NCBI GenBank assembly: GCA_003223255.1
Contig: QHYJ01000110.1
Location: 5,440-51,370, forward strand
Source of the DNA: Acidobacteriota bacterium
Lineage (GTDB): Bacteria; Acidobacteriota; Terriglobia; Acidiferrales; UBA7541
DNA: 45,931 nt
Direction of reading: 5' to 3'
Both the position numbers and the translations under genes were made by a program. Shown here in pieces: positions 21,289 through 26,797 of this stretch (its first letter is position 1; each line of letters starts with the position of its first letter). The notes beneath the pieces are model-generated. The model had not been told where the DNA came from. It saw only the letters and a list, made by a program, of their open reading frames with translations, and made no database searches.

Positions 21289-24243
21289 CTAGAGCAGCGG
21301 CTCCCCGCAGTCTTTCGCAACCGCTTCGCGCGTCGCGTCGCGTAGACGAACCAATTCCCGCCACCCCGCAGAATCTGGCGCCTTTCTGTCGTTATCAACC
21401 GCCTCGGGATAAATCGGCGGATGCACCGTAATCGTCACCCTGCCAGGCCGTGGCAAATAAGCTCCGTCTGGCAAGATTTTCCGCGTGCCGGCCAGCGAAA
21501 TCGGCAGGATGGGCGCGCCCGTGGCCACGGCTGCCTTGAACGCGCCGAGCTGGAACGGCCGCACGCCGTCTCCTCTGGTGAACGTCCCTTCCGGAAAAAA
21601 GAAAATGGACTCGCCATTGCGTAGAAGTTCTTCCACTTCCCCCACCTGCCGCAAACGCGACTCCGGATCGCTGCGGTCAAATCGCAGGTGCCCCATCCGA
21701 TCGAGAAAAGCCCCCACGAACGGCATCCCGCGTACCTCCATTTTCGCGACGAAGTGGTACGGCACGCCCAGGCCGAGCATCAGCGGCAGCACGTCCAAAT
21801 AACTGGCGTGATTGGACGCAAGAACTCTCCCGCCAGGAATATCCATATATTCCTTGCCAATGACGCGCACTTTGCATCCGACCAGCGCGAACAAAATCTT
21901 CACCGCCGAGGAAGTATAGCGGCCCGCAGCGCGATGATCCCGGATGAAATGAAGAATCGCCCAAGTCGGCGCAATCCAGAGGGCAAACACCGCCCAGAAG
22001 TACACGCCATACAGCATTTCGAAACCGCGCTTCAGTCCGCCAAGAATTTCCCGCCGGACATTGTGCACCGTGCTGGTCGTGCACAGCCGCACGATCTGTA
22101 CCCACGCCGGAGCGCGCCCTGCGGAAAGCGTGCCCGCAAGGTAAAGCTGCTTCGTCTCTTCGCGGCGCAATTTTCCACTCGATGTTTTGGGAATGCTTCC
22201 CGGCGGAATCAATTCCACACGATCCGGCGGCAATCCCAGCCCTTGCGAGGCGATTTCCGTAACCTTCGCCGCAATCGCCGCGCGGCGCGCCCCGTCACGT
22301 TCTCGCGTTTCCGCCACCACCACCAGCTTTTCCGTGCCGCTTTCTTCATCGCTCAATCCAAACGCGACCACGCAACCCTTGCGAATCCCTTCAGCCCGCG
22401 TCGCCAACTCCTCAACTTCGTGCGGATACAAATTGCGTCCGCCCTTGATAATGATGTCCTTCACGCGCCCGGTTACGTAAATTTCGCCTTCGGCGCGATA
22501 CGCGCGGTCGCCCGAATTTACCCAGGGAAATCCGCCGTCACTCGCCGTCGGCCCCTCCGGCAGAAGGGCTTCCGTCGCTTTCGGATTGCGATAGTAACCG
22601 CTCGTCGCGGATGGGCCTCGGAACCACAAAAATCCTTCGGTGCGATCCGGCACTTCGTTGCCCTCTCGGTCCACGATCCGCACTTCGTGCCCAGGCAGCG
22701 CCTTTCCGGATGACACAAAGGAAATCGCGGTCTGGTCATCCGCGACGGCAGGCAGCGCGCGCCCCTTCAACGTGAACGTCTCGCGCTCTACGCGATCAAT
22801 CCGCGGCCCGCGACCGAGCGGCGGCACGGTCACGCCCAGCGTGGCCTCCGCCAATCCATAGACCGGCAGTTGCGCTTCGGGACGAAAGCCATATTTCGCA
22901 AAGCGCTCCCCGAAACGCTCCAGCGTTTCCGGGTTCACCGGCTCGGCCCCATTCAGCGCCGCCCGCCACAAGCTGAGGTCCACGCCGTCAATGTCTTTGT
23001 CCGCGATCTTCCGCACGCAGAGCTCGTAGGCGAAGTTGGGCGCCGCCGCCACGGTTCCGCGATGCTTGTGAAACGCATGCAGCCATTTCTCCGGCCGCGT
23101 CAAAAACGCCAGCGGCGACAGCACCGCGACAGGAAGCCCAAAATGCAGCGGCGTGAGCCACGCGCCGATCAAGCCCATGTCGTGATACAGCGGAAGCCAC
23201 GTCACGATCACATCGCCGGGCCCAAGCCTTGCAGCTAGCCCAACGGCGCGTATGTTCGCCAGCATGTTCGCGTGCGTTAGCATCACCCCTTTGGGATCGC
23301 CCGTCGAACCGGACGTGTATTGCAGCATCGCCAAGTCGCTCGCCTTGCGCACGCGGCTCCCGCCGAGGTGTGGCGAAAGCGCGCCAGGCGCCGGCGGAGG
23401 CGCCTTATCCGCCGCTTCGATCACTTTCTCCGCATCCGCCACTTCCTGTAGTGAAGCCACGTGCGGCCGTAACAGCTTCGCCACCGCCTCTCCGCGCCGG
23501 AACGTTAGCAGCATGCATACTTCCGCGTTGTTCAGAATCGCTGATTGCCGCGCTGCGTATTCTTCAATGCGGTCCGCGCGAAACGGCGGATAAATCGGCA
23601 CGGGAACTGCTCCAGCGAGAAGGATTCCCGCATAGGAAATGAAAAACGCCCGCGAAGTCGGCAGCATCAGCGCCACCCGCCCGCCCGCTGGCACACCGCG
23701 CCGCGCCAACTCTTCGGCGAAACGCTGCGCCGCGGCATGCAACTCGCCGAACGTCATGGTGGAGCTAACTTCTCCGGCTGGCCCATCCTCGGTGATCAGC
23801 AGATGCGTTTGCTCCGCGTTGCGCTTGGCGCGGTACCGTAGTATGTCGACAAGTGTCTCGGCCGAAAACACGCCCGCGTCCACGGCGTCGCGATGCCGCT
23901 TCTGCGCCGTCGCCGCCGCTCGCAGCGCGGACTCCGGCTCTGCCAATTCTTCCGCCGTTCCGGGAATCGCGAGAATCGCGTGCGCCAGGTCTTCCGGCGT
24001 GTCAGCCTCCGAGGCCACGCGGTCCAGCAAGCGTACGCCAAACGCACTCTCCAGCCGCGTCAGCAGTTCCACGCGTTCCAGGCTGCCCAACCCCAGTTCG
24101 CGGTCCAATTGTGAGGAGAGGCTCAGCATCGGCAGGGCACCTTGGCTGCCGAGCTCGCTGAGCAAGGTGCGGATGACCTCCAGCACGCGCTCGCGCACGG
24201 CGGAAGTGTCGAGTTGTGTCGCTGGGGTGGCCACGATTTGCAT
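21289..24243 (-). CDS. ACP / fatty-acyl-AMP ligase / 1-acylglycerol-phosphate acyltransferase fusion
   Basis: This 984-residue protein joins three activities. Residues about 15-95 form an acyl carrier protein domain with the phosphopantetheine serine in LGLGSLERVEL (Ser54). Residues about 125-710 form an AMP-binding adenylation domain of the FAAL type, with YTSGSTGDPKG (310-319), LPLYHDMGLIG, YGLAEATLGV (462-471), SGDRAYRAEGEIYVTGR and the catalytic lysine in SSGKLRR (Lys691). Residues about 745-984 carry a hydrophobic segment (748-766) and a PlsC acyltransferase with NHASYLD (811-817) and FPEGTFTR (883-890). Together they suggest activation of a fatty acid, loading on the ACP and transfer to a glycerophosphate-like acceptor at the membrane. 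That order is inference. It is read from a single uninterrupted frame. Confidence 0.9.
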   Translation of the reverse strand: MQIVATPATQLDTSAVRERVLEVIRTLLSELGSQGALPMLSLSSQLDRELGLGSLERVELLTRLESAFGVRLLDRVASEADTPEDLAHAILAIPGTAEELAEPESALRAAATAQKRHRDAVDAGVFSAETLVDILRYRAKRNAEQTHLLITEDGPAGEVSSTMTFGELHAAAQRFAEELARRGVPAGGRVALMLPTSRAFFISYAGILLAGAVPVPIYPPFRADRIEEYAARQSAILNNAEVCMLLTFRRGEAVAKLLRPHVASLQEVADAEKVIEAADKAPPPAPGALSPHLGGSRVRKASDLAMLQYTSGSTGDPKGVMLTHANMLANIRAVGLAARLGPGDVIVTWLPLYHDMGLIGAWLTPLHFGLPVAVLSPLAFLTRPEKWLHAFHKHRGTVAAAPNFAYELCVRKIADKDIDGVDLSLWRAALNGAEPVNPETLERFGERFAKYGFRPEAQLPVYGLAEATLGVTVPPLGRGPRIDRVERETFTLKGRALPAVADDQTAISFVSSGKALPGHEVRIVDREGNEVPDRTEGFLWFRGPSATSGYYRNPKATEALLPEGPTASDGGFPWVNSGDRAYRAEGEIYVTGRVKDIIIKGGRNLYPHEVEELATRAEGIRKGCVVAFGLSDEESGTEKLVVVAETRERDGARRAAIAAKVTEIASQGLGLPPDRVELIPPGSIPKTSSGKLRREETKQLYLAGTLSAGRAPAWVQIVRLCTTSTVHNVRREILGGLKRGFEMLYGVYFWAVFALWIAPTWAILHFIRDHRAAGRYTSSAVKILFALVGCKVRVIGKEYMDIPGGRVLASNHASYLDVLPLMLGLGVPYHFVAKMEVRGMPFVGAFLDRMGHLRFDRSDPESRLRQVGEVEELLRNGESIFFFPEGTFTRGDGVRPFQLGAFKAAVATGAPILPISLAGTRKILPDGAYLPRPGRVTITVHPPIYPEAVDNDRKAPDSAGWRELVRLRDATREAVAKDCGEPLL

Positions 24244-24365: not shown

Positions 24366-24902
24366 CTACGCGCTTTTCTTTGCTGCTGTCGGCAAGGAAA
24401 AACCCTTCGGCAGCAGCGCCGTGGACAAATCCACGCCCGTCAAATCCGCGCCGGTCAAATCCGTTTCGCGCAAAATCGCCACGCCCATGTCCGCGCCCGA
24501 AAATCGTGCGCCATTCACACGGGCTCCGCGCAAGTTTACGTTGCGCAAGTGCGCCCGTTCGAATCGCACGTTCGAAAGGTCGCACCGGAAAAATTCCACG
24601 CCGCTCGCCTGGGCACCGGTTAAGTCCGCCCCCGGAAGAATTGCTTCCGTCATGTCCGCGTTGCGCAAATCGGTGTTTCGGAGGCGGGCGCCGGAAAGGT
24701 CCGCTCCCGGAAGGCGGGCTGTTCGGAGATCACTTCCTTCCAAATTCGCGTTGCGCAAAATCGCGCCGCTCAAATTCACGCCAGACAAATCCGCGTGAGA
24801 AAGGTCCGCGCCAGTCAGGTCCGCGCGCGCGCCGCCGTCTTTCCCGCGGAAAAACAGTTCATGCGCTTGTAAAACGTCCGTAAGTTTTTCCCCCAGTCCC
24901 AT
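24366..24902 (-). CDS. Pentapeptide-repeat protein
   Basis: The product is about 178 residues from ATG 24902. From residue ~28 to ~162 it is an almost unbroken run of A(D/N)Lxx-type five-residue repeats (ADLTGADLSHADLSGVNLSG and onward), which fold as a right-handed quadrilateral beta-helix. Some pentapeptide proteins mimic DNA and inhibit gyrase, but nothing here shows that role, and gyrase is encoded 16 kb away. The N-terminal 20 residues (MGLGEKLTDVLQAHELFF) are helical. An upstream in-frame TTG at 24923 is an alternative start. It lies just upstream of the fused ligase gene on the same strand and ends 122 bases before it. Confidence 0.85.
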   Translation of the reverse strand: MGLGEKLTDVLQAHELFFRGKDGGARADLTGADLSHADLSGVNLSGAILRNANLEGSDLRTARLPGADLSGARLRNTDLRNADMTEAILPGADLTGAQASGVEFFRCDLSNVRFERAHLRNVNLRGARVNGARFSGADMGVAILRETDLTGADLTGVDLSTALLPKGFSLPTAAKKSA

Positions 24903-25136
24903 AAAATAACCAGTCCTGTCCAAGATGATCGTGTTGTCTTTGATTCTGCCAATTTTACCGGAAGTGGCTGGGCGCGTGGAACTCGCTAGGAAAATCTTGA
25001 AAGGCGTGACGGCTCTTCATTCCGAGGAGTGAAGCGCGGCTTGATGTCAGCACAAGCGAGGCCGCGGCGAGCGTCGCAAAACGGTATTCATGGCTTCGAT
25101 GCAGCAGCCGCTTCCCGCCGATTCTTGCTTACAGTC

Positions 25137-25499
25137 CTAGGCCGCAACGGGTGTCGCGGCGGACGAAGTCCCGATGGCGGAGTAAAGTGCGTCTCGGAGC
25201 GCCACCTCGCGCGGATCTCCGGTCAACACGCCCCGCATCTGGCTCGTCACGTAGGCGTAACCGACGGCCGCTACCGGATCCGCAAAGCCAAGAGAGCCGC
25301 CAGAGCCGGGTGACCCGAAGGAGCTCGCGCTAGCGCTGCCGAACGACCACACCGCGCTCGGCTTCATGAAACCCAGGGAGAACTGCACCTCCGCCTTCAG
25401 GCATTGGTCATAAAACCCGCGCGCCGGCGGAATCGCCGGAGCGGCCAACAGGTCCAGCGTTTCTTTGCGCAAGCCCAGTTCACGTCCGCCCACACAGGT
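25137..25499 (-). pseudogene. Remnant of a serine hydrolase (beta-lactamase/esterase class C family)
   Basis: The last ~120 codons match the C-terminal end of the beta-lactamase-fold serine hydrolase family: LGFMKPS, FGSPGSGGSLGFADPVAAVGYAYV and DPREVALRDALYSAIG are typical of it. Upstream of about 25499 the frame stays open, but its translation no longer resembles the family. The catalytic SxxK and YxN motifs are absent, so only the 3' end survives. The open frame continues to 25784 on the - strand. I call it a degraded copy rather than a short gene. Confidence 0.6.
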
Positions 25500-25750
25500 C
25501 CGGTGACCGTCGATAAGTCCCGTTCTTCGCACCGCAAATTCCGAAGGCTTTTCGGCACTCGTCTGAGGAGCAGGGCCCGGACGGCCTAGTGAGGCATACG
25601 ACGTTGCAGGCGAAGCAACCACTTCATGCAGCGATGGGGGCGCGAAGAAATTGCGCGATCTGGTCGGGCACTTTCGCCATAACTGCGTAAGCCGCCACTG
25701 TGTCTGTTTGCGACCTGAGATGGTAGCACTACCGGATCCCGGATTTCCCC

Positions 25751-25779
25751 GTGAAAAACTTGCGGAAGGCTCGTAAAAT
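25751..25779 (+). promoter_or_regulatory. Candidate promoter for the secreted unknown protein
   Basis: GTGAAA (25751-25756, four of six matches to TTGACA), a 17-base spacer and TAAAAT (25774-25779). The -10 ends 10 bases before ATG 25790, the same spacing as at 8922 and 13536. If real, the in-frame GTG at 25751 is part of the promoter and not a start codon. Confidence 0.45.
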
Positions 25780-25789
25780 TTCATTGGGG

Positions 25790-26797
25790 ATGTTCAGGGC
25801 CTTTCCAACGCGGCCAAGCATGCGGAACGTTTCGTTGCGGCTCGTGTATCTCGGGATTCTTCTGTTCTTCTTTGCGGCGGTCATTGCGGCGCAAGCGCAA
25901 GACCGCGAAGAGGAGATCATCGCCAACCTGGCCGGCGGATGCGTCATTGTGCACGTCGCGCGCGACACCATCGTTTTCGCCGCCATCGATCACGCCGTCG
26001 AATCGAACTCCATTCCTCCCCGCGTCGCTGGCGTCGACTCCACGCACATTGGCGTGCTCTTCGGCGCTTCCGAATGGCGCATTCCTGCCGATCCCAAGCC
26101 CATCCGCTTGGACCGCAATTATCAGCGTGTGGGCCCTCAAGCGCGCGAAGATACTGTGCCTGGGGAAGCCGAGCCGGATCTCGAGCTCATCGGCACCGTG
26201 TTCCTCGAGAAGCTTCGTCCGCTCGTTGGCCGGTTGCACCACAAGGTCGATTTCTCTCCCGATGACCCTGTCTTCCAAATGGTCATCATCGGCTATGCGC
26301 CGGGCGGCTACGGCCCCGAGGTTTGGGTCGTCGAATATCACATGGAGCAAGAGCAGATCGCCACGCGAGGTGAGGAATACTGGCAGACGCGCGTCCTGCG
26401 GCCGCACTTCACGCAGCTCTACCCGCCGGAGAAGCATGCGCCGCACACGTTAGTCGAAAGCCGCTATCCCGCGAACCTGAAAGGGCCGACGCTGGAAGAA
26501 ATGATCAAGAGCAATGACCCGCGCCTCGGTGCCGTGCTCCACGAGCCGCGTTTCGAGAAGGTGCTGGAGAACCTGCGCGGTGGCACAGCCCAGAAAGCCG
26601 CCCCCGCCGATTCCATCGATTTCATGCGCGCCGTCATGCCGCTGCTTGCGGGAAATTCTTCTTATGTCATTGGCACGATGGATGAGCAGCACGGCATGAA
26701 TTGGGTCGTTCCCCCTTCCGAGCCCATCGAAAAGGCCGAAGAAGACAGGAACCGCCCGCCCGACGCCCCCACCCTCCGCCGCCCCATCAAACCGTGA
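25790..26797 (+). CDS. Secreted protein of unknown function
   Basis: The product is about 335 residues from ATG 25790, with a signal peptide or N-terminal anchor (SLRLVYLGILLFFFAAVIAA, cleavage near AQAQ-D). The mature part begins with a GGCVIVHVARDTIVFAAIDH segment and then HIGVLFGASEW. This pattern of paired strands is faintly like Ntn-hydrolase folds, but I would not assign it. A later segment has VDFSPDDPVFQMVIIGYAPGG, and the C-terminus is Pro/Arg-rich. GTG 25751 and ATG 25817 are other possible starts. The gene stands alone and its function is not recognised. Confidence 0.6.
   Translation: MFRAFPTRPSMRNVSLRLVYLGILLFFFAAVIAAQAQDREEEIIANLAGGCVIVHVARDTIVFAAIDHAVESNSIPPRVAGVDSTHIGVLFGASEWRIPADPKPIRLDRNYQRVGPQAREDTVPGEAEPDLELIGTVFLEKLRPLVGRLHHKVDFSPDDPVFQMVIIGYAPGGYGPEVWVVEYHMEQEQIATRGEEYWQTRVLRPHFTQLYPPEKHAPHTLVESRYPANLKGPTLEEMIKSNDPRLGAVLHEPRFEKVLENLRGGTAQKAAPADSIDFMRAVMPLLAGNSSYVIGTMDEQHGMNWVVPPSEPIEKAEEDRNRPPDAPTLRRPIKP

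Follow-up and report, generated by a model that had tools for sequence, protein, structure and literature searches.

A carrier, a ligase and an acyltransferase on one chain

We analysed a 45,931-nucleotide stretch of contig QHYJ01000110.1 from an Acidobacteriota bacterium (assembly GCA_003223255.1), referred to as the window, and focused on a single minus-strand gene whose 984-residue product joins an acyl carrier protein (ACP) domain, a fatty acyl-AMP ligase (FAAL) domain and a PlsC-type acyltransferase. Pfam placed PP-binding at residues 33–90 (E = 3.7e-6), AMP-binding at 151–551 (6.9e-71) and Acyltransferase at 791–917 (2.5e-27), and homologues carry the same domains, which confirms the one-chain order proposed in the first-pass annotation. 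As this set and order recur across homologues, the combination is not a product of chance. The residues and motifs named in that annotation, Ser54, YTSGSTGDPKG (residues 309–319), Lys691, NHASYLD and FPEGTFTR, were all located where it had put them.

21289..24243, minus strand: ACP-FAAL-PlsC open reading frame (ORF), 984 amino acids from ATG, stop codon included (ORF call, Pfam, homologues)
23974..24147, minus strand: ACP (PP-binding) domain, residues 33–90 (Pfam, above cut-off)
24082..24084, minus strand: codon of Ser54, predicted phosphopantetheine site, in LGLGSL (position check and alignment)
22120..23862, minus strand: FAAL domain, residues 128–708 (Pfam, NCBIfam, structure alignments)
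22720..22827, minus strand: FAAL-specific insertion region, about residues 473–508 (alignment with E. coli FadD and Aas)
22171..22173, minus strand: codon of Lys691, motif PKTSSGK (position check and alignment)
21940..22008, minus strand: hydrophobic helix 746–768, N-terminal part of the PlsC domain (5kym_A alignment, hydropathy)
21493..21873, minus strand: PlsC/lysophosphatidate (LPA) acyltransferase core, residues 791–917 (Pfam, TIGR00530, 5kym)
21793..21813, minus strand: PlsC motif I NHASYLD, residues 811–817 (position check and alignment)
21574..21597, minus strand: PlsC motif III FPEGTFTR, residues 883–890 (position check and alignment)

The ligase domain has the marks of a FAAL. The top NCBIfam model for the whole protein was PRK09192, a fatty acyl-AMP ligase model (419 bits), and further FAAL models scored 258–345 bits, compared with 215 for the coenzyme A (CoA) ligase model PRK06187. 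Alignment revealed an insertion of ~20 residues after the YGLAE motif, which E. coli FadD and Aas lack at this place, and the window ligase aligned through this region to solved FAALs. In the alignment with 3pbk, W349, P351, M356, R383-P384 and F404 correspond to EcFAAL W224, P226, M231, R258-P259 and F279, assuming a one-residue offset between chain and paper numbering that was inferred from motifs. According to the accessible part of PMC8460268, these EcFAAL residues obstruct the CoA pocket or line an alternative one. The FAAL-specific insertion was thus sought and found together with the CoA-pocket-blocking residues, and the sequence supports assignment of the domain as a FAAL and not a CoA ligase, one that would be expected to reject CoA.

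Of 87 loci examined, 86 cover the ACP serine and 85 retain it, the exception being L097 of family f7, which reads LGFDAADL. Scored alone, the domain reached 24.1 bits against the acyl carrier protein model TIGR00517, below the cut-off of 70.45. The residue before the serine is Gly in the window protein and in the majority of acidobacterial loci, with Ala, Ser or Glu taking its place in a few; L140, L146, L147 and all eight plasmid loci (described below) have Asp, so we read the Gly as a lineage trait. The GSL reading with Gly for Asp therefore stands, although it is usual among acidobacterial members and not a peculiarity of the window gene.

The acyltransferase part, ACYLTRANSFERASE, keeps all of PlsC motifs I–IV in the alignment; proteins of the PlsC/AGPAT type are defined by NHX4D and FPEGT, plus motifs II and IV. 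Its sole solved relative found was 5kym, a 1-acyl-glycerol-3-phosphate acyltransferase (7.3e-26), and its best NCBIfam model was TIGR00530, an LPA acyltransferase (95.7 bits); the Pfam Acyltransferase cut-off was exceeded. Together these bear out a PlsC-type enzyme. The stretch 746–768 is modestly hydrophobic, with a Kyte-Doolittle value of 1.72 over 19 residues against 1.91 for a stretch within the ligase. It had been taken for a membrane segment between FAAL and PlsC, but 5kym aligns from its residue 10 with window residue 746 onward, and the stretch, lying opposite the N-terminal part of 5kym, belongs to the PlsC domain itself. An AlphaFold2 model of the full protein, built from ten rows (the window protein and L021–L029), reached a mean pLDDT of 35.1 and a pTM of 0.23 and was not used.

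Relatives with intact and altered acyltransferase parts

Of 41 genomes, the window's own among them, 37 matched the protein at E 1e-20, partial matches counted. Class-wide, 100 of 250 genomes matched at 1e-100, and 84 carried a near-full-length copy (rows starting at residue 19 or before and ending at 917 or beyond, counted by eye; own genome and the altered clade included). Phylum-wide, 91 of 396 genomes matched at 1e-60, mostly over the ligase only; outside the class, 11 genomes had near-full-length copies and one more was cut by a contig end. Of 72,556 plasmid records, 226 matched at 1e-40, and in nine, all proteobacterial, a single place accounted for at least 80% of the query at 39–42% identity (hosts Sinorhizobium, Methylobacterium, Cupriavidus, Paraburkholderia and Photobacterium). 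The eight plasmid loci examined comprise seven from these records and L109, a shorter relative with a 773-residue ORF. The architecture is thus not special to the group of the window organism, as proteobacterial plasmids also carry it.

Frame breaks led us to handle L020/L040 (one genome) and L041 as fragments. The motif alignment held 70 ORFs, some of them same-genome copies, and left out fragments, FAAL-only relatives, Thorarchaeota rows and ORFs below 850 residues; in one alignment step, 15 rows more than 96% identical to another were removed. Proteins of 1105 and 1106 residues (f11; one same-genus genome) combine AMP-binding with NAD_binding_4 and were set aside as a different architecture.

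On four plasmid loci (L105, L106, L107 and L109), the homologue lies among annotated stress-type genes (universal stress protein, FtsH, Hsp20, BON, DUF302, P-type ATPase). The L107 homologue is overlapped on its upstream side by another AMP-binding gene and is followed by acsA, PDH E1/E2 and a separate ACP. An annotated CDP-archaeol synthase (L106:14224-14715) lies near the homologue of a Methylobacterium nodulans plasmid.

A clade of 34 genomes (families f6, f7, f13 and f14) carries an altered PlsC part. NHX4D is standard across the acyltransferase family, and the catalytic His of this motif is replaced by Arg in 32 of the 33 covered loci of the clade; the remaining one, L134 (VRRSATAQD), has Ser at the position and no His. 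L171 lacks coverage here, and a second G084 hit is not included. Outside the clade, the His is kept in 53/53 loci examined, these being the loci with flanks at hand and not all intact members. Motif III FPEGT is degraded in the clade, while the ACP serine and ligase motifs are retained in the 21 altered proteins aligned (L133 reads PRTSNGK, with the Lys kept).

In a tree of ligase columns, 22 altered rows fell on one side of a branch (SH-aLRT 100), although forks around the clade were not resolved and the outgroup did not group as one. The tree was built by a quick method with no bootstrap from 72 of 99 aligned rows, omitting thinned same-genus rows, L073, L080, E. coli FadD, L098 and L167–L185, and its E. 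coli Aas branch is very long. Given this grouping and the NHX4D rule, we read the His loss as a single event.

The altered PlsC part also appears to change faster. Mean identity over the linker and PlsC was 40.8% against 73.0% over the FAAL in f6 (15 rows), and 42.3% against 69.9% in f13; the corresponding values were 53.3% and 64.9% in the intact family f1 (10 rows), and 37.5% and 53.7% in intact rows from other classes (11). However, at least 90% of the 20 f6 and f13 rows share Arg812 and further residues, which argues against mere decay.

Most altered genes lie in a conserved operon. Near the f6 genes we found a FAR-type reductase in 20/24 loci, a PlsY-like protein in 23/24, HAD in 17/24 and Lar_N in 16/24; the f7 loci gave 3/3, 3/3, 2/3 and 1/3, respectively, and the single f14 locus has FAR (1/1). 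Six f13 loci showed none of these neighbours, though f13 is placed inside f6 on the ligase tree. L129:349-8041 encodes, on one strand and in this order, FAR, ACP-FAAL-altered PlsC, PlsY-like, HAD and Lar_N; similar operons, with a Lar_N protein of 560 residues, occur in L100, L136 and other f6 and f7 loci, some of which add an epimerase and a DAGK-like gene (L100:184-1206 was labelled DAGK by eye). The FAR-type protein has NAD_binding_4 and a Sterile match under the Pfam cut-off, and its best NCBIfam match was a thioester-reductase model (102.5 bits, cut-off 213.35). The PlsY-like protein passed Pfam, carries GSGNPGFNNV and scored 112.8 bits against TIGR00023 (cut-off 137.2). FAR, PlsY-like, HAD, Lar_N and DAGK were absent from the flanks at all 53 His-bearing loci, within flanks that vary in length and are nearly nil on one side at L021, L148 and L149; one weak epimerase match (28%) lies near L152. 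Because the His loss counts as one event, we treat its link with the FAR operon as one association, not many. In L097, FAR and PlsY-like neighbours are present, yet the ACP serine and the PlsC histidine are both missing.

We tentatively suggest, at less than even odds, that ACP-FAAL serves as a switchable acyl-loading module. In the altered clade, the fused PlsC would be a conserved pseudo-acyltransferase, and acyl-ACP would be handed to the neighbouring FAR and divergent PlsY, giving an elb-like ether-lipid route that dispenses with a one-chain ElbD. That FAR may accept the acyl group from the fused ACP is suggested by gene order, and retention of the loader where the built-in outlet has been lost supports the modular view. 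The clade with its lost PlsC histidine and retained ligase motifs appears to be new, as does its association with a FAR-type reductase operon: judged by titles and abstract openings, none of the papers listed described the clade, its operon or any pseudoenzyme form of PlsC in the family, in a search that mostly did not extend to subscription journals.

At the window locus itself no lipid operon was seen, and the whole window contained no match to the altered-clade operon seeds. A pathway could not be read from the neighbours, which by eye are a pentapeptide-repeat ORF, purD, and beta-barrel-like and amidohydrolase-like ORFs. The first of these lies upstream of the ACP-FAAL-PlsC gene:

24366..24923, minus strand: pentapeptide-repeat-like ORF (label by eye)

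It recurs in 10/10 nearest-relative loci (L021–L029 and L040) and was missing from every other locus searched; a functional link is not shown. The ORFs at 25751-26794 and 25140-25784 had no Pfam match at 0.001. Among the loci examined, the former was confined to the ten nearest relatives, eight of which also have purD as a neighbour.

Elsewhere in its own genome we found one PlsY match, three phosphopantetheinyl-transferase matches and four further Pfam Acyltransferase matches. The latter are open frames of 265 and 271 residues (AGPAT-like), a 1162-residue MFS-PlsC-AMP-ligase protein with the LplT-Aas layout, and a 972-residue protein (contig C73, L119:1321-4236) with AMP-binding, PP-binding and Acyltransferase in the order ligase-carrier-acyltransferase. 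The product of the ORF beside this last gene resembles an HpnH-type radical SAM protein. A separate cluster on contig C262 (L166:5870-17941) encodes a HAD-FAR fusion, a second NAD_binding_4 reductase, and pyruvyl-transferase-like, two AMP-ligase-like, DAGK-like and AGPAT-like ORFs, the DAGK and ligase labels being given from similarity to family seeds or by eye.

Proposed activity and alternative explanations

We propose, with a probability of about 0.6, that the window protein is a self-loading acyl-ACP:lysolipid acyltransferase. Its FAAL domain would convert free fatty acid and ATP to acyl-AMP and load the acyl group in cis onto the phosphopantetheine arm borne by Ser54, with CoA excluded; the membrane-associated PlsC domain would then transfer it from ACP to lysophosphatidate or a similar lysolipid (1-alkyl forms among them), at the free hydroxyl. 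The first two steps (acyl-AMP and acyl-Ser54) are suggested by the FAAL features and the ElbD precedent, and the third by the PlsC motifs. Holo-ACP formation is plausible in view of the three phosphopantetheinyl-transferase matches; cis transfer and the identity of the acceptor, like the CoA-free route and its product, are what we infer from the sequence.

Several observations weigh against this proposal. All 25 NCBIfam models shown (of 110) stayed below their curated cut-offs, and the PlsC part narrowly missed the TIGR00530 cut-off (102.95). The ACP domain is divergent, with Gly in place of the usual Asp before its serine. The 150 of 250 class genomes with no match at 1e-100 show that many members of the class can dispense with the protein. 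In the FAAL-only relatives L036, L037 and L038 the match reaches the linker before PlsC (residue 723–732) but includes neither ACP nor PlsC; near L036 and L038, no separate gene for either was seen in ORF lists inspected by eye and not family-scanned. The activities are not always coupled either, as the altered clade keeps ACP and FAAL with a His-less PlsC and L097 has also lost the ACP serine. Finally, in the portion of PMC9131029 at hand, acyltransferase activity of ElbD was not detected in vitro.

A narrower form of the same proposal, with overlapping odds, is salvage of the Aas type only, in which lysophospholipids are re-acylated with exogenous or released fatty acids and no special acceptor is involved. 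The two chemical steps would be those of Aas, and the PlsC part is nearest to LPA acyltransferases among NCBIfam models; however, the genome already encodes the MFS-PlsC-ligase protein, and we consider this restriction to salvage rather unlikely. That protein would also make plain recycling, one of the two roles offered in the first-pass annotation beside unusual lipids, redundant, and the earlier interpretation of the fusion as a whole is partly supported. As the genome also has PlsY, the two small AGPAT-like proteins and the LplT-Aas-layout protein, the role is likely to lie in handling a specific pool of fatty acids or in a special lipid and not in bulk phosphatidate synthesis.

The special lipid could be of the ElbD type, the window protein providing acyl-ACP and an sn-2 acyl group for an ether or unusual lipid while reductases are encoded elsewhere. 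This explanation shares its chemistry with the self-loading acyltransferase and differs in role, so that the odds again overlap. The altered-clade genes adjoin FAR, HAD, epimerase and DAGK-like genes, like the elb genes in the available text of PMC9131029, and the C262 cluster would offer the reductases. Nevertheless, that cluster includes its own ligase-like and acyltransferase-like genes, the domain order is unlike that of ElbD, and the empty flanks of the 53 intact-PlsC loci (0/53), some of them short, point the other way; we regard an ElbD-type role as doubtful. An amino-acid lipid of the lyso-ornithine type, or a hydroxyl other than that of a glycerolipid, is, on model scores, a most improbable acceptor: matches of the PlsC part to OlsA-type models (54–66 bits) speak for it, but the OlsA cut-off is 300 and the part scores better with the LPA acyltransferase model, at 95.7 bits.

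If the self-loading acyltransferase is real, the path from free fatty acid to lipid would need one protein and no CoA, and this in a soil phylum that is large and for the most part uncultured. The contrast within the family weighs more: an intact PlsC without the FAR operon and an altered PlsC with it form a natural experiment on the target of the loading module. The family is also a candidate for ether-linked lipid synthesis in some acidobacteria that lack ElbD, an open point in PMC10087280 and PMC11868695, as far as the accessible parts of both go.

Comparison with known systems

Aas and LplT-Aas likewise join a ligase and a PlsC-type acyltransferase on one chain, but place the acyltransferase before the ligase and have no carrier, and E. 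coli Aas lacks the FAAL insertion. The first-pass contrast with Aas, opposite order and no fused ACP, therefore holds, although Aas is not the nearest comparison: ElbD and the fusions of PMC8460268 are closer in layout, judging from the accessible portions of their sources. The latter paper (eLife 2021), in its available part, mentions bacterial fusions of a FAAL-like domain with a lysophospholipid acyltransferase, so the fusion architecture as such is not new; the mention specifies no domain order, ACP, organism or function. FAAL and carrier also share one chain in the didomain proteins HapA and NocH, which belong to natural-product assembly lines according to the consulted text of PMC11837247, a text with no mention of PlsC, glycerol or phospholipid.

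The 972-residue protein of the same genome combines the same three domains in an ElbD-like order minus the reductase, and is 29–30% identical to the family over local matches. ElbD of Myxococcus xanthus, compared here by its described layout and not by sequence, has an AMP ligase, a carrier and an AGPAT-like acyltransferase on one chain; its ligase and carrier activities were confirmed in vitro in the part of PMC9131029 available, and an excerpt of PMC9426513 lists ElbD homologues as reductase, synthetase, thiolation and acyltransferase. The window protein differs in its carrier-FAAL-acyltransferase order, in having no reductase and in the lack of elb-like neighbours (HAD, epimerase) at its locus. 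The operon of the altered clade comes closer to the elb operon, as far as it is described in the same part of PMC9131029, in that a ligase-carrier protein and FAR are accompanied by HAD and epimerase, and departs from it in encoding FAR as a separate gene.

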